Shown piece by piece: positions 7,358 through 47,401 of a stretch of 64,000 nucleotides of DNA (the first letter of the stretch is position 1; the number at the start of each line of letters is the position of its first letter). The stretch comes from Campylobacterota bacterium (GTDB lineage: Bacteria > Campylobacterota > Campylobacteria > Campylobacterales > Sulfurimonadaceae), in contig JBFMGG010000008.1 in assembly GCA_040752835.1 (NCBI GenBank), forward strand, positions 124,001 to 188,000, in the 5' to 3' direction. The notes under the pieces were generated by a model. That model searched no databases, was not told where the DNA came from, and saw only the letters and a program-made list of their open reading frames with translations. The position numbers were made by a program, and so were the translations under genes.

Positions 7358-8200
7358 TTAGCAAGCCCCTGGAGAGAGTTTCTCGATGCCGTTGACGCAT
7401 ACGAAGCGGTTTTCATCGAAGTTCGCTTTGAGAATGCGGTTATTGATGATCCCTTCTTCTTCGGCAAAGCGTTTTTTGTGCCACAGGTGCATCATGCAGG
7501 CGTTGTTGCGGCACGATTTGAGCTCGATCCCCAGGCCGCGGAAACGCCATCCAAGGTCAATATCCTCTCCCACGGAAGGGAGGCGGTAGGTTTCATCGAA
7601 GCCGTTGATTTTGAGCATGTCTTCTTTAAAGCACGAGAAGTTGCAGCCGATGATGTAGCGGACGTAGCGTTTGGTGATATTGCTCAACAGACTGCCCGAG
7701 GAGAAATAAAAACCTTCTTCAACGTGTCTTGCACCGTCTTTCACCATCCATGGCAAATGCCACAGGAAATGTTTTTCAAGCTGTGCAAAGGGGAGGGTAT
7801 GTTGTTTGACTTTGGCCGTATATTCCGGCCCCAGTTCGAAACGTTTCCCGCACAGGACAATCCCTTTTTGCGCGTTTTCGACGTGGCCTTGGATAAATGT
7901 GCTGTAAGGTACGCAATCCCCGTCGATGAAGATCAGATATTCATGGCTTGCGGCTTTGATCGCGTTGTTCATGGCAATATTTTTCCGCCACCCCTCGTCG
8001 GCCTGGGTCAGGTGGACGAGATGGGGGAACCGCCCTTTTTGCGCCGCCACGAATTCCGCCATTTCGTTAGAATCGCCGTCTTCGGAAATGATGATCTCAT
8101 CGGGCGCGACGCTCTGGTGTTCGAGGCTGTCGAGGATGAACCCGAGCGCTTCGGTGTCTTTGTAGACCGAGATGATCAGGGTTGAACGGGGATAGGGCAT
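7358..8200 (-). CDS. Glycosyltransferase family 2 with galactosyltransferase-type C-terminus
   Basis: A 280 aa GT-A transferase. It starts STLIISVYKDTEAL, has a IISEDGDS strand and a FIDGDCVPY D-x-D metal site at about residue 94. Its second half contains IGCNFSCFKEDMLKINGFDE and GEDIDLGWRF, the acceptor/catalytic ED block of the chondroitin-polymerase and galactosyltransferase C-terminal family. It is likely to add a hexose or N-acetylhexosamine to the cell-surface glycan. It follows the GT9 gene by 32 bases in the same operon. Confidence 0.85.
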   Translation of the reverse strand: MPYPRSTLIISVYKDTEALGFILDSLEHQSVAPDEIIISEDGDSNEMAEFVAAQKGRFPHLVHLTQADEGWRKNIAMNNAIKAASHEYLIFIDGDCVPYSTFIQGHVENAQKGIVLCGKRFELGPEYTAKVKQHTLPFAQLEKHFLWHLPWMVKDGARHVEEGFYFSSGSLLSNITKRYVRYIIGCNFSCFKEDMLKINGFDETYRLPSVGEDIDLGWRFRGLGIELKSCRNNACMMHLWHKKRFAEEEGIINNRILKANFDENRFVCVNGIEKLSPGAC

Positions 8201-8232
8201 AGGGGGATTCTCCGGAATGTAATGGCCTTATT

Positions 8233-9252
8233 TTACAGGATATTAGCTGATTTTAACGCTGAGAGTACCGTTTCGGCTGAAAGATCCTTCATGCAGACGT
8301 TGTCGGTGCACGCTTTCATCGTCGGGGTTTTGTAACACGGCGAACATGCTAACCCCAACGAAAGAATGTGGACTTCGTTCGTTGCCGAACGATAGGGACC
8401 GGTGACGTGAGCGGGGGTGGGACCGATCAGGCAGAAAACGGGGGTATTCATCGCCGAAGCGATATGTGCCGTTCCTGTATCGGTCACGACAAGGGCCCGC
8501 GCATGGCCGATGACGCTGATCATTTCGGCAACGGTCGTGCGTCCGACAAGATCGATGACGTTGGGAGGATAAGGGCGGATTGCTTCGAAAAACGGTTCTT
8601 CCCCTTTTCCGCCGACGATCACGATGCTGAGATCCGAGGGGAGAAGGGCAATGAGCTTTTTCCAATGGCTTTGCGGCCATGCACGGTAGTTCAGGCGGCT
8701 TTTTTTGTTGTGCGAGTTGCTGGGGCTGAGGACGATGTAGCGCTCGGGCAGCTGGAGTTTTGCCTGTACCTCGGGAAATTTTTTGCCGATAATCCTAGGA
8801 GCGGCCTGTTGAAGGACGTCTTGGGTAACGACCGGGGCGTAAAACGATTTGCAGATATCGACCATATGGTCATTTTCTCCGAAAACGGGCTGCTCAAAAA
8901 ACCATCCGCTTTTGTGGCGTGCCCGGATGGCGTTGCACAGGGTTCGGAACTGTTTACCCATCTCGAAATTGATGAACAGGTCGTACGGATTCTGTCGCGA
9001 TGCACGGATGATGGAGCGTTTTTGCGGGCTAAGCCACACGGGGAGTTTTTTATGCCTGAGATGAAAAATATGGTTGATGCGGGGATCGTTTTCAAATAAT
9101 TTCGCGGTTCCGGGCGTCGTGATAAAGTCGATGACCACTCCGGCACCGTATTCGGCACGGAGGGCATCGATGACGGAGGTCGCGTACACCAGATCCCCCA
9201 GCGCTCCGCAGCGCAATACCAAAACCCGTTTGATGTCCTCGGGAATATGCAT
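8233..9252 (-). CDS. Glycosyltransferase family 9 (heptosyltransferase-like)
   Basis: A 339 aa member of the heptosyltransferase superfamily. The N-terminus reads RVLVLRCGALGDLVYATSV, with the Asp of the GD motif. The C-terminal half has IVIVGGKGE, LVGRTTVAEM and VVTDTGTAHIASAMNTPVFCLIGPT, the classic donor-binding DTGxxH signature, intact here unlike in the other GT9 protein of this window. The frame is open 13 codons upstream, but the ATG at 9252 lies 2 bases after the rfbB stop and fits the family N-terminus better. A C-terminal group of cysteines (ACSPCYKTP, CTDNVC) is typical of WaaC/WaaF-like proteins. Confidence 0.85.
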   Translation of the reverse strand: MHIPEDIKRVLVLRCGALGDLVYATSVIDALRAEYGAGVVIDFITTPGTAKLFENDPRINHIFHLRHKKLPVWLSPQKRSIIRASRQNPYDLFINFEMGKQFRTLCNAIRARHKSGWFFEQPVFGENDHMVDICKSFYAPVVTQDVLQQAAPRIIGKKFPEVQAKLQLPERYIVLSPSNSHNKKSRLNYRAWPQSHWKKLIALLPSDLSIVIVGGKGEEPFFEAIRPYPPNVIDLVGRTTVAEMISVIGHARALVVTDTGTAHIASAMNTPVFCLIGPTPAHVTGPYRSATNEVHILSLGLACSPCYKTPTMKACTDNVCMKDLSAETVLSALKSANIL

Positions 9253-34092: not shown

Positions 34093-34169
34093 GGCTGGGT
34101 AGCTCAGCTGGTTAGAGCGCTGGTCTCATAAGCCGGAGGTCGGGGGTTCGAGTCCCCCCCCCGCCACCA
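34093..34169 (+). tRNA. tRNA-Met (CAT), integration target
   Basis: A 77-base tRNA with encoded CCA. The anticodon loop is CTCATAA (anticodon CAT), the T-arm is GGGGG-TTCGAGT-CCCCC and the D-arm is GCTCAGCTGGTTAGAGC. The acceptor stem GGCTGGG/CCCCGCC has a T-C mismatch at pair 4-69, which is unusual. CAT could also be a tRNA-Ile with lysidine, but the overall form is that of elongator Met. Its last 14 bases form the left attachment site of the mobile element. Confidence 0.85.
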
Positions 34170-34174
34170 TCGAA
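34156..34174 (+). repeat. attL, left attachment repeat
   Basis: CCCCCCCGCCACCATCGAA spans the last 14 bases of tRNA-Met and five bases beyond. The same 19 bases recur at 47383-47401. The sequences diverge on both sides, as expected for site-specific insertion. Confidence 0.9.
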
Positions 34175-34371: not shown

Positions 34372-35664
34372 TTGGCTCGCAAAGTTGTACCCCTAACCGA
34401 TACCGAAATAAAAAAGGCAAAACCAGCCGAAAAAGATTATAAACTCTTTGATGGCGGCGGGTTATTTTTGCTTATTAAACCAACCGGTGGTAAGTTATGG
34501 CGTCTAAAATATCTCTTTGAGGGGAAAGAAAAACTCATCTCGTTAGGAACATACCCCGAAACGACGTTGGCGGAAGCGAGAGCCAAACGGGACGAATACA
34601 AACGAGAAATCGCCAAAGGGATAGACCCATCCGCAGAGCGCAAAGAATCAAAAGCGAAAATCGAAGAAAAAGTGATGGAAGAACAAGCCGCCATAGAGGG
34701 GCAATTTCATCGTGTGGCATATGAATGGCTCAACTCATTAAACAATGATGAGAGTACGCATAATAAGCGTGTTTCATCGTTTGAAAAAGATATCTTTCCC
34801 TACCTATGTACTTATAACGAACGACATTCCATTATCTCGTCGAAGCATATTAAGGACATCACCCATCCTGAACTACTGAAAATCATTAAGACAAAAGAGA
34901 AAACGGCTCCAGAAGTAGCTATCCGCCGCTTTAGAGACTGTAACCGGCTGTGGAGATATGCGATCAATCATGGTTACACTGAAAGCAATATCACTGATCG
35001 AATCAGCAGCGATGCATTCGCTCCACGGCAAGAGAAACACTTTGCAAAGATCACGGATGAAAAAATCTTAGGAGAGCTTTTGAGAGGCATAGAGGATTAT
35101 AAAGGTGAGGGAGGCGTGATTGTACGAAATATTCTCCGTTTTGTCTCTATCATGCCTTTACGTGCTGATAATCTATGTAAATTACGATGGGATCAGGTTG
35201 ATTTTGAAAAATCGATCATTACGATATCCCGATCCGAGATGAAAGTTAAAGATCAAAATCTACCCGACTTTGTATTACCGCTCCCGAGACAAGCGATCAA
35301 TATCCTCAAAGAAGTAAGAGAAATCACGGGATGGGGACAATGGGTATTTCATGGAGTACGCAACAATCTTACCCATGCGAATAAAGAGAGCGGGAATAAA
35401 GCGTTGAGATCATTGGGATTTATTGACGAAGTAAACGGGCGCAAACAAACGCTGCATAGTTTTCGAGGTACTTTTCGATCACTTAGCGAAACACATGCTA
35501 AAGAGCATGGCGTGAGCTTTGAAGTACGGGAACGTGTGCTAGATCACCATGAAGAAAATAAAGTCATTAGAGCCTATACCCATAAAGCGGATTACACTGA
35601 GCAGATGAGAGAACTGATGCAATGGTGGGCGGATTTTTTGGATCAAACAAAGGTGAGTAAATAA
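34372..35664 (+). CDS. int: Tyrosine integrase, P4 family
   Basis: Site-specific recombinase that inserts and excises the element. The product (430 aa) has the N-terminal P4-type arm-binding domain (LTDTEIKKAKP, YKLFDGGGLFLLI, ISLGTYPETTLAEAR), a core-binding helix bundle, and a catalytic domain with Arg264 in PLRADNLCKLRW, the H-x-x-R box His362-Arg365 in LHSFRGTFRS, His392, and nucleophile Tyr402 in IRAYTHKADY. The start is TTG at 34372 with a GAGG ribosome site. Placement beside the tRNA it targets is typical. Confidence 0.93.
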   Translation: MARKVVPLTDTEIKKAKPAEKDYKLFDGGGLFLLIKPTGGKLWRLKYLFEGKEKLISLGTYPETTLAEARAKRDEYKREIAKGIDPSAERKESKAKIEEKVMEEQAAIEGQFHRVAYEWLNSLNNDESTHNKRVSSFEKDIFPYLCTYNERHSIISSKHIKDITHPELLKIIKTKEKTAPEVAIRRFRDCNRLWRYAINHGYTESNITDRISSDAFAPRQEKHFAKITDEKILGELLRGIEDYKGEGGVIVRNILRFVSIMPLRADNLCKLRWDQVDFEKSIITISRSEMKVKDQNLPDFVLPLPRQAINILKEVREITGWGQWVFHGVRNNLTHANKESGNKALRSLGFIDEVNGRKQTLHSFRGTFRSLSETHAKEHGVSFEVRERVLDHHEENKVIRAYTHKADYTEQMRELMQWWADFLDQTKVSK

Positions 35665-41047: not shown

Positions 41048-41440
41048 GTGCCACCGAAAAAAGTCAAATCCCCGGACGAATTACGCCAAAAAATGATTGG
41101 TGTAAAAGCGAACCAGTCAGAATACGATGCGATACATGAACAGGCAAAACGATTCGGATTGTCTGCGCCGGAGTTTATGAGATCCGTTTCGATGAATTAT
41201 CCGATCCGGTCGGTCATCGATGAAAAAGCGGTAGCGGATCTTCTTAAAACAAATGCGGATCTGGGACGGCTCGGTGGACTTTTAAAAATGTGGCTCACCC
41301 GGAATGGGGGAGACAAAGACGATTTCAGTGCCAAGAGATCCTACAAAGACATCGATGAACTGGTGGACGAGATCGAGGTTGCGCAAAAGATTCTAAAAGC
41401 CCAGGCATTAAAAATCATGGGAGTATCGGATGATCGTTAA
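41048..41440 (+). CDS. traJ: TraJ/MobC-like relaxosome protein
   Basis: A 130 aa relaxosome accessory protein with a GTG start. The N-terminus has a ribbon-helix-helix-type region, KMIGVKANQSEYDAIHEQAKRFGLSAPEFMRSVSM, as in MobC and TraJ. The C-terminal half is an amphipathic helix bundle (LGRLGGLLKMWL, DELVDEIEVAQKILK). It probably binds the inverted repeat at oriT and loads the relaxase. Its end overlaps traI by eleven bases, as in RP4-like operons. Confidence 0.85.
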   Translation: MPPKKVKSPDELRQKMIGVKANQSEYDAIHEQAKRFGLSAPEFMRSVSMNYPIRSVIDEKAVADLLKTNADLGRLGGLLKMWLTRNGGDKDDFSAKRSYKDIDELVDEIEVAQKILKAQALKIMGVSDDR

Positions 41441-43031
41441 GACCGTATCCAAAAAGACCCAGGGTACATCCAACTTCGGAAGTCTGGCCGCGTATATGCT
41501 TGATGAGAAAAATGCCGGTCGAAAAGTCGAAGATTACCGTTTCACTAATTGCTCGTTCGACCAGGACAATCACAACTTGGCCGAGATACAAAATACACAA
41601 GCTCTCAATACCCGATCCAAGTCAGACAAGACCTATCACATGGTTGTTTCTTTTCAAGCTGGTGAGAACCCGACCCCGGAGATCCTCGAAGAGATCGAAA
41701 ACGAGCTTGTCAAAGCTATCGGCATGGAACGGCATCAGAGGTTATCGGTCATCCATGGAAACACCGGCAATCTACACATCCATATAGCGATCAATAAAGT
41801 TGATCCGATGACGTACCGAAATGTCGATCCCTCTTTTGATAAAACCAAACTCCAGGAGAAAGCGGCGCAGCTTGAAAAGCAATTCGGATTGATGATCGAC
41901 AACCATACGCCGAACAAAGAGAAGATGCCGCGAGAGCTTGGCGAGATCCATTCGGGGATCGAGAGTTTTAAATCATGGGTGAAAAGCGAGGCGGTTCAGC
42001 AGCTTACCGAAACACTGGCCAGACCCGAAGCGAAATGGGAAGATCTGCACAAAGCCCTGGGTGAATACGATTTGGAGATCCGGCAGCGCGGGAACGGGTT
42101 CGTAATTGCTGCAAGAGATGGCAAGCTGTTCTGTAAAGCGTCGGACGTATCGCGCGACCTATCCAAAGCAAAGCTCGAATCAAAATTCGGAGCATTTGAA
42201 AAGCCGGCAGAGATCATCGAAGCCAAAACACGGTTTGGCGAGCGAAGTGCTTTGATGAAGGAATACTGGACAGAATATCGGGAACAATCCAATGAGAACC
42301 GATCCAAAAAACCTGTTTTGCTTACAGAACTCAAACGCAAATCTACTCAGGAGAAATCAACCATACTGTCCGAGTATAAAAAAGCCCGTGGCGAGATCCA
42401 GGCGGCCGATTACTTGAACGGTAAGGAAAAGCGTGAGAAGTATTCGGAGTTGGCAGATAAAAAGCGAAAAGATCTCAATGTTCTCTATCAAAAAACTCAA
42501 AAGCAGCGCAACGAGATTTATGCACAGATTCGGCACGTTTCTTTCAAAGACCATTTGATCCATAAAGCCATCGAGGGAGATACCAACGCCCTCAAGCTGC
42601 TGCGGAGCATGAAGCCTGACCAGGTAGAGATCCCGAAAGATGCAAACGTCTTTATCGGTAAAGAAGGCAAGCCGGTTATCCGAACGGAATATAAGCCGAT
42701 TATTACGCAATCCGGGGACGTAATCTACAAACTTGGCAATCGGACACGGATCATGGATCAGGGTAATACCATTCGGATCACGGAGCTGCGCAAGGAATCA
42801 GAGTATGTTCAGGCGTTAATGCTTGCCAGAGAGAAATTCGGCAAATCTCTTGATATCCAGGGCAGCGATGAGTTCAAGAAGCAGATCACCGCCGCAACGA
42901 TCAAATACAACCTTGATGTTGAGTTTAAAGACCGCAGCATGGAAGATGCGAGATTGGCAGTGAGCAAAGTGATTGATCACGCAAAAGAGCAAGAAATAGA
43001 AAAGTCAAAAAGTAAGAGGATGGGATTGTAG
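41430..43031 (+). CDS. traI: Relaxase, TraI/MOBP family
   Basis: Nicks oriT and stays covalently bound to the transferred strand. The product (533 aa) has all three relaxase motifs: Tyr22 in GSLAAYMLDE, Ser74 in MVVSFQAGE, and the H-x-D-like metal motif with His109, His116 and His118 in HGNTGNLHIHIAINKV. Tyr22, Ser74 and His116 are the catalytic residues of RP4 TraI at the same numbers. The C-terminal half is helical and charged with no primase seen. It is shorter than RP4 TraI (732 aa). Confidence 0.92.
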   Translation: MIVKTVSKKTQGTSNFGSLAAYMLDEKNAGRKVEDYRFTNCSFDQDNHNLAEIQNTQALNTRSKSDKTYHMVVSFQAGENPTPEILEEIENELVKAIGMERHQRLSVIHGNTGNLHIHIAINKVDPMTYRNVDPSFDKTKLQEKAAQLEKQFGLMIDNHTPNKEKMPRELGEIHSGIESFKSWVKSEAVQQLTETLARPEAKWEDLHKALGEYDLEIRQRGNGFVIAARDGKLFCKASDVSRDLSKAKLESKFGAFEKPAEIIEAKTRFGERSALMKEYWTEYREQSNENRSKKPVLLTELKRKSTQEKSTILSEYKKARGEIQAADYLNGKEKREKYSELADKKRKDLNVLYQKTQKQRNEIYAQIRHVSFKDHLIHKAIEGDTNALKLLRSMKPDQVEIPKDANVFIGKEGKPVIRTEYKPIITQSGDVIYKLGNRTRIMDQGNTIRITELRKESEYVQALMLAREKFGKSLDIQGSDEFKKQITAATIKYNLDVEFKDRSMEDARLAVSKVIDHAKEQEIEKSKSKRMGL

Positions 43032-43634: not shown

Positions 43635-44108
43635 TTATTGCTTATTGATTCTTTGCCATGAAAGTTTAATATGTGTACCGCGACTAATTTCGTATATTCC
43701 ATCTCTTGAGCTTACTAAATTTTTATAATCTTCAAGATTCTGAGTTTTTTGATACATATCTTGATTTGCTTGAATTGTGCTATCGGGTAAGTATTTATGA
43801 ATTGTAGGAATACCCTCTATTTCATTCTTGTCCCAAATGTTAACTTTCGCTTCAACATCTATTAGTTTATTTTGCAATATACATGAAACACGTGCATTTT
43901 TTAAAAATCCCCGTGTCTTATCAATATAAATATCACCTAAAATTCGACATCCTGAGTATTCTCCAGATTCAATGTCAATAAGAACTGGCCGTTCCCAATG
44001 CTTGAGCATATCTGCCCCAACCAATAATACACCATCTGCTTTGTCTAAAGACGATGCATTCAATATTGAAAACATCATCATAGGAGTGAATAGGAGCACT
44101 TTTTTCAT
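43635..44108 (-). CDS. Exported protein of unknown function
   Basis: A 157 aa protein with a signal peptide (MKKVLLFTPMMMFSILNASS). Two cysteines (SGCRILG and VSCILQ) lie 27 residues apart within a beta-strand-rich segment. This loosely recalls the beta-barrel of TraB/VirB10-type proteins (GCxxLxxxYxD), but it is far too short to be a full VirB10. It is read on the minus strand after the methylase operon. I cannot assign a function. Confidence 0.5.
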   Translation of the reverse strand: MKKVLLFTPMMMFSILNASSLDKADGVLLVGADMLKHWERPVLIDIESGEYSGCRILGDIYIDKTRGFLKNARVSCILQNKLIDVEAKVNIWDKNEIEGIPTIHKYLPDSTIQANQDMYQKTQNLEDYKNLVSSRDGIYEISRGTHIKLSWQRINKQ

Positions 44109-44135: not shown

Positions 44136-44990
44136 TTAAGATACAAGTTCTTTTGTATCTTTAATATTAAGATTGTCAGAAAAAAAGAAAACCTCACTCC
44201 CCTTGCGCTTTGTTCCTGCTGTATAGCTCAAAGTCATTTCCATTAATTGCGTTTTTGAATATAAATCCCGGATTTCTAGTTCATCATCATAGGAAACGAC
44301 CCAATGGCATTTAAGGTCATTTTTGACTATATAGGCAATCTTGTAATGATCACTAAAGACATAATGATTTTTATATAGTTGTTTACCTTTTACAAAGTAA
44401 GGAGGGTCTAAATAAACCAATGTTTCATTTGTTGGAAGTTTAGTAACTTCTTGTTGTAAAAAATATGCGGCGTCAAGATTTGAGAGATGAATATTTGAAG
44501 CTCTGGATGCAATTTTTTCAATTCGTTTTATAAGATCAATTTTATTGTATCTTACATCCATTTTCCAGTCGCCTGCTTGAGCTTTTCCACCAATCATTCC
44601 AGCTTCTAAGATGCCGGAACGATTGGTGCGGTTTAGAAAGAAAGTTGAAAAACCAACGTCTAATGTTGAATATTCTGTATTTTGATTCCGAATCGATTTT
44701 TGTTTGATCCACTCATCCGGGGTAACAGATGTATCTATGATTTTTTTACATAGAGCATCTGTTTCATTCAATACCGCATACCAAAAGCAATAAACCGAGT
44801 AATCCAAATCATTTAAATAAATTGCTTTTGCAGTTCCACTAAAAAGAAGTCCAAGGGCAACTCCTGCACCACCTGCATAGGGCTCGACATAATTGATTTG
44901 ACTTAAATTATTTGATTGAATGATATCGTCAAAAAAGGATGTAAATTTGGCTTTACCTCCGGGATAACGTAAAGGAGTGTAGAAACTCAT
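44136..44990 (-). CDS. D12-class DNA adenine methyltransferase
   Basis: A 284 aa N6-adenine methyltransferase of the Dam (D12) type. The SAM-binding motif is YVEPYAGGAGVALG at 34-47, a FFLNRTNRSG box lies at 117-126, and the catalytic motif DPPY is at 195-198. RYPGGKAKF at the N-terminus is the usual start of this class. It is the last gene of a three-gene minus-strand operon, overlapping the gene before it by ATGA, and could protect host DNA against an activity encoded upstream. Confidence 0.9.
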   Translation of the reverse strand: MSFYTPLRYPGGKAKFTSFFDDIIQSNNLSQINYVEPYAGGAGVALGLLFSGTAKAIYLNDLDYSVYCFWYAVLNETDALCKKIIDTSVTPDEWIKQKSIRNQNTEYSTLDVGFSTFFLNRTNRSGILEAGMIGGKAQAGDWKMDVRYNKIDLIKRIEKIASRASNIHLSNLDAAYFLQQEVTKLPTNETLVYLDPPYFVKGKQLYKNHYVFSDHYKIAYIVKNDLKCHWVVSYDDELEIRDLYSKTQLMEMTLSYTAGTKRKGSEVFFFSDNLNIKDTKELVS

Positions 44991-45976
44991 AGTATTTCTT
45001 CTCCTATTCGCTCACGCTGAGCAATAACCCATGTTTTTAAATCATCAAGCTTATCGATCTTGTCTATATGTGATGCACCTGCATTAAATAGTGAAACACC
45101 TTTATCAATGGCCGGCGGTAAGGTAAAACGCCAAAGAATATAACCGAATTTTACACTGTTTACTTCTTCGATATCTTTTCGATCGCCATCAAACTCTGGG
45201 TGCAAATCGAAAGGAATTGATATACCAACATTCATTTGTGCATCTGGTTTTCTTGAAAACCATTGTCCAAATTGATCTGATGCTTTGAAATGCATTAATG
45301 ATTTGCTTTTCCAATTTGCACCTGAAGCACATTGTGTTAGATACAAAGTATAGCCCGGGCGCCAATCTATTGGCCATGCAATTACATCGAGTTCTCCGTC
45401 TTTAATATAAGGGCTTGAACCTGGACGTAATTCTTCAATCACTTTACCATTATTGAGTTTGTCTTCAAAAATATGTTTAAGTCTGCCTAAAAAACCTGAA
45501 TTATCATCACATGGAAAACCAAAATGATATGAGTGAGCGTTAAAACTGCCTGCAACTGCAACTACACTACAATATTCAAAAAGATTGCGTTCATTATTGC
45601 TTATGGTGATATTATTGAGTTTCTTTTTAGGAATATTGGACAGCAAGAGACAAAACAAATAGACGTATGCACCTTCGGTGAGATCGTCAGGGCTTTTTAA
45701 CATTAGTTTGGTTTGACACGGTGAATAAGTAAATGGATAAGAAGTTCCAATTTGGCTTGATCTATTAGCTATCTCAGAATATAAATCAAGGAGATAGGTT
45801 TCCATTTCAAGATTTGCACCTTCGAAGTCCGTTTCTTCATTTTCTCGTCTAACATCAAAAATTCGCCCTACATTCTCAATGGATGCTTCCCCGCACCGGT
45901 AAGCGCAAAGTTCTAAAATATCAGCTATATCCCAAAGGTCTTCATCTAAAGAGATTTCAAGGCAATATTTACTCAA
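44987..45976 (-). CDS. Unknown protein with a possible nuclease core
   Basis: A 329 aa protein that I do not recognise by family. Its middle has an acidic-hydrophobic strand ELDVIAWPIDW (Asp197), then LYLTQCASGANWKSK (Gln215, Lys225). The D...Q...K spacing fits a PD-(D/E)XK-like restriction nuclease core, with the Q replacing E, and a similar Q-C-A-S-G-x-N-W-x-x-K pattern is, from memory, seen in unknown proteins of defence islands. The C-terminal third is helical. It sits between a ParB-like gene and the methyltransferase, with a 3-base gap and a 4-base overlap. Confidence 0.5.
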   Translation of the reverse strand: MSKYCLEISLDEDLWDIADILELCAYRCGEASIENVGRIFDVRRENEETDFEGANLEMETYLLDLYSEIANRSSQIGTSYPFTYSPCQTKLMLKSPDDLTEGAYVYLFCLLLSNIPKKKLNNITISNNERNLFEYCSVVAVAGSFNAHSYHFGFPCDDNSGFLGRLKHIFEDKLNNGKVIEELRPGSSPYIKDGELDVIAWPIDWRPGYTLYLTQCASGANWKSKSLMHFKASDQFGQWFSRKPDAQMNVGISIPFDLHPEFDGDRKDIEEVNSVKFGYILWRFTLPPAIDKGVSLFNAGASHIDKIDKLDDLKTWVIAQRERIGEEIL

Positions 45977-45979
45977 ATC

Positions 45980-47095
45980 TTATGCCTTTTTTACTTTTCT
46001 TTTGACATACTCTAAAATATTTTCACTCATTTTATAAATTTCTTCGGACATTTCTAAAAGATGTGCTTCACCATCATATTTATCCATCATCCCCTGTGCT
46101 TTACGGAGATGTATATAGCAATTTGTTAGAGAACTTTCGAACACATCAGATTTTTCTTTTGTTTCTACCAGAGCTTTATCCAAATCCCTTGTGTCTTTTA
46201 GGATAGCGTGTGCGATAGGATTAGAAATTACCATCCCAAGATTTTTCAAATCAGGATTTTGGCTTTTAATTAAAGGTGGGATGTTGTCTGTTTTTGAGCC
46301 ATAAAAATATTGAAAAACTTCACCAAAACGTTCTTTTTGTTTATCTGTTTTGATGGGTTGAAGATCAGGATTTTTATCCCATCCTAATTCTAAATCAAGA
46401 TATTTTGAGTATTCTTTTCGTCCGAGTGCTGTGTATAAATGAGAAAAGCCAAAGCGTCCACGATTATATTTATCGCTAATTTTAAATAAGCCTTCATTTT
46501 CTGCTTGATCTAAAATGAGCATTGAAGAGATAAAAGAACGGATTGTATCATTTGAATCTCCTATCTTTTTGGCAATTTCTTCAATAGCAATGGGTGTACC
46601 TGCTTCTTTTGAACGGACATACCAATCTGTTACAAATCTTGCTTTAGCGTATGAATCCCAACGAAAAGCACCATTAACATGCTTAAATGCAATATAGGAT
46701 TCCGCGTCAAATCTGTTGTTGACAACGACTGCTGAAAGATTTTCAAAACTTTTGGATGCACTTTGTTGGCATCCTTCAGGAATATTGATTTTACATTCTG
46801 TAGCTAATACTGGATTTGAAATTAGTTTAAGGGTTGCTAATCTTCGATTTCCTTCTAAAACTGTATAAGTTTCTGGAGTTGTACCTCTTGGTAATACGAT
46901 TAGAGGCTCAATGTCTAAATAGCCATTCGCACAAATTGAGTTAATTAATTCAGATAAATCAGCAATTTCATGAAGGGTTTGAATAATAGTATCGTCTTGA
47001 GAAGGGGTGTTGTTATCACCTCGTACAAGTCTTGGATTCTCAATATCAAAGTATAATGACTCAATTGAAAGTGAAAGTTTGTTAAATAATGACAT
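45980..47095 (-). CDS. ParB/Srx-fold protein
   Basis: A 371 aa protein whose N-terminal 100 residues form a ParB-like domain: IENPRLVR near the start, then the second box VLEGNRRLATLKL with Glu81-Gly82-Asn83-Arg84-Arg85. A central helical region (YAKARFVTDWYV, IAKKIGDSNDTIRSFISSMLI) resembles the ParB helix-turn-helix. Proteins of this superfamily can be CTP-dependent clamps or nucleases. Here it opens a three-gene operon with an unknown protein and a methyltransferase, so a role in plasmid-type partition is less likely than one in DNA modification or defence. Confidence 0.7.
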   Translation of the reverse strand: MSLFNKLSLSIESLYFDIENPRLVRGDNNTPSQDDTIIQTLHEIADLSELINSICANGYLDIEPLIVLPRGTTPETYTVLEGNRRLATLKLISNPVLATECKINIPEGCQQSASKSFENLSAVVVNNRFDAESYIAFKHVNGAFRWDSYAKARFVTDWYVRSKEAGTPIAIEEIAKKIGDSNDTIRSFISSMLILDQAENEGLFKISDKYNRGRFGFSHLYTALGRKEYSKYLDLELGWDKNPDLQPIKTDKQKERFGEVFQYFYGSKTDNIPPLIKSQNPDLKNLGMVISNPIAHAILKDTRDLDKALVETKEKSDVFESSLTNCYIHLRKAQGMMDKYDGEAHLLEMSEEIYKMSENILEYVKRKVKKA

Positions 47096-47382: not shown

Positions 47383-47401
47383 CCCCCCCGCCACCATCGA
47401 A
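47383..47401 (+). repeat. attR, right attachment repeat
   Basis: CCCCCCCGCCACCATCGAA, identical to the end of tRNA-Met at 34156-34174. Downstream sequence is chromosomal and leads into the hydrogenase island. Confidence 0.9.

Follow-up and report, generated by a model that had tools for sequence, protein, structure and literature searches.

The question raised by this locus is whether three tightly coupled genes, carried by a mobile element in a member of the Campylobacterota, encode a system that restricts foreign DNA, and to what extent such a system is already known. The genes lie within a window of 64,000 nucleotides (the whole stretch of DNA that was analysed) and are referred to here as P (ParB-type protein), N (predicted nuclease) and M (methylase). 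An initial annotation, made from the letters alone, had proposed them as a candidate undescribed defence or modification system.

The operon and its mobile element

P (45980-47095; 371 aa, ATG start), N (44987-45976; 329 aa, TTG start) and M (44136-44990; 284 aa, ATG start) are intact open reading frames on the minus strand, separated by a gap of 3 bases between P and N and overlapping by 4 bases between N and M, in agreement with the coupled gene order originally described. The proposal that they are cargo of a mobile element was likewise borne out. They are located at one end of a 13.2-kb mobilizable element inserted at a tRNA-Met gene (34093-34169), which encodes a tyrosine integrase (34372-35664, plus strand; Pfam Arm-DNA-bind_3 and Phage_integrase) and a MOB relaxase (41430-43031, plus strand; Pfam Relaxase, 5.4e-31, TraI_middle and LPD7). 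A 19-bp exact direct repeat, CCCCCCCGCCACCATCGAA, is present at the tRNA-Met 3' end (34156-34174, plus strand) and again just upstream of P, at the end of the element (47383-47401, plus strand), representing the att sites. The AT-richness noticed initially is evident as well, with a GC content of 33-37% in P, N and M vs 54-58% in the flanks.

Two strong palindromes had also been reported upstream of the operon. Both exist (8-bp arms with a spacer of 3 and 7-bp arms with a spacer of 5) but they are weak, and the best inverted repeat upstream of P (p ~0.013) is longer, AT-rich and distinct from them. A conserved operator was rejected, since the region upstream of P in relatives showed no enrichment of inverted repeats (5/109 at p<=0.05); the palindromes are thus not a general feature of the module.

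N is a single-copy gene in the source genome (2.13-Mb assembly) and was not detected in 396 other genomes of the phylum using the single window sequence of N as query. Two further D12 methylases of unknown specificity are encoded in the source genome, one (G000 C7:661094) adjoining a lytic-transglycosylase-like gene and the other (G000 C6:130193) located ~5 kb from a ParA/ParB-like pair. On the same strand as the operon, 27 bp after M, starts a protein of 157 aa (43635-44108, minus strand) whose N-terminus resembles a signal sequence and which had no match in a Pfam scan; it could be the fourth gene of the P-N-M transcript or other cargo of the element.

The three proteins

P contains an N-terminal ParB/Srx-type nucleotide-binding domain, a central HTH and a helical C-terminus. 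Its match to NCBIfam parB_part (E=2e-7) is below the cut-off and a PDB sequence search with the P profile gave nothing useful. Conversely, the AlphaFold model of P (pLDDT 92.8) matched KorB (8qa9, E 1.3e-6), ParB-CDP (6sdk), Noc (7nfu) and Spo0J over ~260 columns in Foldseek, and on this basis P is assigned to the ParB-CTPase fold with an HTH, supporting the ParB-fold call of the initial annotation. The motifs NPR (residues 20-22), EGNRR (81-85; 46841-46855, minus strand) and FKHxNG (137-142, with x being I or V) are invariant in 75/75 homologs. The second of these is a Box I-like nucleotide-binding motif that aligns with AGERR of the host ParB (hhalign p 2.6e-5). P has both the Box I G-x-R-R and the ParB N-domain fold. 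The fold and the HTH are shared with the CTP-gated DNA clamps ParB, KorB and Noc. In contrast to these, P has KHxNG as Box II in place of the canonical ENxQR, is not accompanied by ParA and has a predicted nuclease and a methylase as partners. Due to the departure in Box II, CTP is not assured as the ligand of P. Members of the ParB-CTPase fold bind CTP, ATP or GTP and, according to a section heading in the accessible part of a 2025 survey, sequence does not reliably predict which of them (PMC12704722); the P-N-M module is not described in that part of the survey. A role of P in chromosome partition was considered and rejected, given the absence of ParA and the constant predicted nuclease partner.

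N of the window matched no family model in Pfam, NCBIfam or PADLOC, and a scan of 86 members of its family against the same collections gave no family hit beyond isolated weak ones. It does match phrog_14650 (E 3e-30), a PHROG of unknown function, and a PDB sequence search with the N profile returned nothing useful. The AlphaFold model (pLDDT 91.7, pTM 0.92) displays an N-terminal winged helix followed by a mixed alpha/beta core with PD-(D/E)XK-like topology, in which D197 enters one strand, Q215 ends the next and K225 lies just before a helix. Together with D193 these residues form the predicted active site (45302-45400, minus strand), an assignment supported by their conservation in the 86 homologs (D193 and D197 in 86/86, Q215 in 85/86, K225 in 84/86). 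The two homologs lacking K225, L080 (D) and L081 (S), are exactly those that carry K217, where GQCKTG provides a canonical Q-x-K. Judging from this alignment, K225 is the putative catalytic lysine, migrated from position 217, and the migration would represent one event, since L080 and L081 form one clade. The alternative Q-x-K state is found in N at L080:7105-8037 and L081:7080-8009.

Alignment of the N family with Mrr_cat (hhalign p 0.0056) placed D197 and Q215 in register with the aspartate of GGxD and the Q of QxK, respectively. A Foldseek search with the N model produced no individually significant match (E >= 0.05); the top matches, each of them weak, were mostly PD-(D/E)XK nucleases, including Nt.BspD6I, Card1, Can2 and an arenavirus cap-snatching endonuclease, all of which have this fold. 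Against viral predicted structures the N model again gave weak matches, the best of which included Mrr-like and PD-(D/E)XK proteins. Thus, N shares the D...Q-x-K register with Mrr_cat and the D-QxK restriction nucleases, with the canonical lysine retained in L080 and L081, and differs from them in having the lysine 8 residues further on in nearly all members, in lacking a Pfam hit and in its N-terminal winged helix. The suggestion that the middle gene could encode a PD-(D/E)XK nuclease is therefore supported by fold and by a near-invariant motif with a migrated lysine, both obtained by computation, and DNA cleavage by N is an inference from them.

M belongs to the D12 class of N6-adenine DNA methyltransferases, as annotated initially. 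It matches Pfam MethyltransfD12 (E=6e-17), with the motifs RYPGGK and DPPY, PDB entry 7m6b (1.4e-18) and, over 281 residues, the PADLOC model PD-Lambda-5_B (PDLC04018, E 1.6e-116).

Recurrence of the module and exchange of the methylase

When single sequences of N and P were used as queries, no relatives were retrieved from viral and genome contigs, and alignments were therefore needed. P alone served as the query for most of the homologs, which introduces no bias towards N or M; two plasmid loci were fetched with N. An N gene comes next after P, in the same orientation, in 114 cases, with a gap of <=20 bp in 110 and a median gap of -4. P without N corresponded to contig ends, fragments or the longer PD-Lambda-5_A type, except at three loci (L039, L069 and L077) where P is present and N was not found. 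A methylase was located at <=400 bp from the P-N pair in 103/114 cases vs 7/354 control ORFs taken elsewhere in the same loci. The methylases of the 103 pairs, of which examples were checked by Pfam, belong to the D12 (60), N6/N4 (39) and C5 (4) classes, and those of the D12 class are convergent with P-N in 39 cases, co-directional in 16 and upstream in 5. At least 8 switches of methylase class map to the P tree, and the number rises to 15 when orientation is scored together with class. In the D12 set the distance correlation was 0.97 for P-N vs 0.88 for P-M. P and N evolve as a pair, and the class of the accompanying methylase is exchanged.

The module is present in Pseudomonadota, Myxococcota, Actinomycetota, Acidobacteriota, Chloroflexi, Cyanobacteriota, Rhodothermota and other phyla, many of the hosts being MAGs, and is carried by ICEs, plasmids and P2-like phages; many copies are chromosomal, in contigs from both isolates and MAGs. 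The initial annotation had made its reading depend on the recurrence of the three genes together, and this was fulfilled across phyla, phages and plasmids. Neighbouring genes are mixed (matches to AbiLi, AriA, MADS, type I and type III methylases, together with many housekeeping genes). For this reason, and in the absence of a matched baseline, no enrichment in defence islands is claimed.

An early regex scan pointed to many loci devoid of methylase, which was rejected because most of them carry full-length methylases. Where sequence was available, five P-N pairs lack a methylase nearby (two at L007 and one each at L009, L010 and L030) and L049 also contains P-N without methylase, while in L057, a near relative of L049, an internally deleted N6/N4 methylase (8080-8420) lies beside open P and N genes. 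At L012 the genome containing L057 (Methylumidiphilus) has another P-N-D12 module, which is complete. Some of these loci have particular arrangements. The phage record MT835579 (L007:3968-8807) has two convergent P-N pairs with no methylase either between or beside them, and in a Neorhizobium plasmid (L010:2827-3900) the methylase-less P-N is directly preceded by a Z1-domain gene and an annotated protein with a PD-(D/E)XK motif. At two further loci (L056:3135-5987 and L066:3212-5974) a protein of 920-950 aa with an N6_N4 methylase domain (checked by Pfam in L066) overlaps the start of P, and the usual methylase after N is also present.

Relationship with PD-Lambda-5 and other known systems

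The closest known system is PD-Lambda-5, a prophage-borne ParB plus D12 methylase pair with measured broad antiphage activity, described as a compacted RM+Abi system (Vassallo et al. 2022, PMC9519451). As with P and M, its ParB-fold protein A adjoins a D12 adenine methylase B, and M fulfills the requirement of a D12 methylase of the PD-Lambda-5_B type. Conversely, the PADLOC PD-Lambda-5_A model matches P (5e-25) only through residues 7-156, corresponding to roughly one third of the length of the model. PD-Lambda-5_A is a protein of about 430-510 aa with a different C-terminus and no N gene, whereas P has ~370 aa, lacks the C-terminal part and has a separate PD-(D/E)XK-like partner, and the methylase next to P-N may be C5 or N6/N4 instead of D12. 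A two-gene layout without N is not what is found in the P family, with its 114 P-N pairs, and in loci with the long ParB N is absent unless P is also present. In eight loci a single D12 methylase is common to P-N and a PD-Lambda-5_A-like long ParB, in at least three gene orders: P-N-long ParB-D12 (L022, L059, L070), long ParB-D12-P-N (L083, L087, L089) and P-N facing D12-long ParB (L032, L068).

A 2013 survey of HEPN proteins, of which a part was available, reports operons combining HEPN with ParB and a DNA methylase (MAE_28990) as well as HEPN-ParB fusions (Saro_3948) (PMC3710099). As far as that part goes, these conflict operons resemble P-N-M in joining ParB and a DNA methylase and differ in the effector, a HEPN RNase instead of a PD-(D/E)XK-like nuclease, and N is not described in it. 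Type IV restriction by GmrSD resembles P and N in combining a ParB/Srx-fold protein with a nuclease; unlike P-N-M, it has an HNH nuclease, lacks a methylase and targets modified DNA. The combination of a DUF262 ParB-like domain with HNH was not met, as neither P nor N of the window had a GmrSD or HNH match, and GmrSD_N was touched by 1/75 P proteins. In a PADLOC scan, the matches of P, N and M were limited to models of PD-Lambda-5, PDC-M38A and generic methylases; signature genes of BREX, DISARM, Dnd, Menshen and MADS were absent from the three genes. Two of the features expected of a Type II R-M system are present, namely adjacency of methylase and nuclease genes, at the frequencies given above, and a known REase fold in N, by topology and motif, with weak Foldseek matches. 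For another, retention of the methylase beside an intact nuclease, there are observations on both sides, as M is spared in the disrupted E. coli copies (see below) and carries a deletion next to open P-N in L057.

No description of the N family, the N-P pairing or the methylase swapping was found in the open-licence literature searched (a description elsewhere is possible), nor is the module named there or in the family models of Pfam, NCBIfam and PADLOC. The term "undescribed" thus holds for the nuclease-bearing type and not for a wholly new kind, as the scheme of ParB, effector and methylase was known in outline from PD-Lambda-5 (PMC9519451) and, from the available part of the survey, the HEPN operons (PMC3710099). 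The best reading is that the module is a nuclease-bearing sister type of PD-Lambda-5. This extends PD-Lambda-5 to a general scheme in which a ParB switch is combined with an exchangeable effector and an exchangeable methylase, in a module that is broadly distributed among phyla, P2-like phages, ICEs and plasmids and essentially unnamed, with a predicted nuclease family missing from the three collections of family models.

Proposed function

The reading we favour, with a probability of about 0.68, is that P-N-M constitutes a three-component restriction-modification-like defence module; no activity has been measured and the function is inferred. M would methylate a single DNA motif, both in host DNA and in that of the carrying element. 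P would bind DNA through its HTH, with nucleotide-dependent closing or loading by the ParB-CTPase fold and, alone or with N, would discriminate unmethylated from methylated motifs, bringing N to the DNA so that unmarked DNA is cut. Cleavage by N, the blocking of cleavage by the M mark and phages or plasmids as the target are all inferences, as is the role of P as loader or specificity factor, which is deduced from its ParB fold and its pairing with N. This reading is supported by the recurrence of the triad, the exchange of the methylase class around P-N pairs that evolve together, the near-invariant predicted active site of N, the ParB fold of P, the hotspot position and the disruption pattern of the E. 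coli copies (see below), and the D12 methylase common to some triads and a PD-Lambda-5_A-like gene, PD-Lambda-5 being a system with antiphage activity. Weighing against it are the individually insignificant Foldseek matches of N, the divergent Box II of P and the mixed neighbourhoods. The P-N pairs devoid of methylase and the deletion in L057 indicate that P-N without methylase is not always lethal and argue against a strictly lethal classical R-M system; either cleavage is tightly gated, another methylase provides protection or these copies are silent.

The same methylase-less pairs would be compatible with an abortive-infection or guard module, in which P-N is a latent killer nuclease that is triggered by a phage event and attacks host DNA, with M either ensuring that the host genome does not set it off or serving a neighbouring PD-Lambda-5-type system. 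The hybrid loci with one D12 methylase common to P-N and the long ParB point in this direction, as does PD-Lambda-5 itself, whose ParB N-terminus is of the type seen in P and whose partner is likewise of the D12 class, in being called a compacted RM+Abi system (PMC9519451). This alternative is nevertheless considered unlikely: P is devoid of the long ParB C-terminus, the predicted active site of N is of the DNase type, and P-N is followed by three methylase chemistries, a diversity more readily explained by self-marking than by guarding.

Solitary methylases and ParB proteins are frequent on mobile elements. This fact and the ParB-CTPase fold of P would accommodate a module unrelated to defence, in which P serves in regulation or partition as a ParB-type protein, M shields the element from host restriction as a solitary anti-restriction methylase and N is an accessory enzyme; the lack of a ParA gene in the operon, the nearly obligate P-N pairing, the predicted nuclease active site of N and the many chromosomal copies in MAGs and isolates speak against it, and it is regarded as improbable. 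A selfish addiction R-M system, in which post-segregational killing serves mainly to retain the ICE, plasmid or prophage that carries it and defence is secondary, is also improbable. The occurrence on ICEs, plasmids and P2-like phages and the AT-richness of the cargo speak for it, but in a few genomes the methylase is missing or broken beside open P-N, and P-N without M thus seems to be tolerated.

Within the favoured restriction-modification-like reading, one possible mechanism, held only tentatively, is that P acts as a nucleotide-gated ParB-type clamp that is loaded at unmethylated sites, slides and hands the PD-(D/E)XK nuclease to the DNA. If this were true, a CTPase-fold switch would drive restriction, in place of a helicase motor or of a site-specific enzyme acting on its own. 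Under the favoured reading the module would link DNA restriction to the ParB-CTPase switch, a fold with functions outside partition that are for the most part unknown.

Copies in Escherichia coli

The P2-like phages Wphi and 12474 carry P-N with a C5 methylase; in Wphi the triad corresponds to orf98-orf96-mth. Their methylases are 97.8% identical, whereas P (33.8%) and N (26.4%) are divergent, showing that P-N is exchanged as a unit while the methylase is kept. Four disrupted copies were found in E. coli (two with IS insertions in N, one with a split N and one with IS2 upstream of P) and M is intact in all of them. The sparing of M fits an R-M system, although the number is small and 0/4 is not significant alone. 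The Wphi-type module was detected in 103/5,426 E. coli genomes, including E. coli W, where an intact natural copy in prophage Wphi makes the module directly testable in laboratory strains. A further 36 E. coli genomes contain a methylase with 90-95% identity without the Wphi-type P-N DNA; two of these were inspected and both have the 12474-like layout. The Wphi and 12474 types adjoin the phage portal gene in P2-like prophages, a neighbourhood that is a defence hotspot (PMC9519451).
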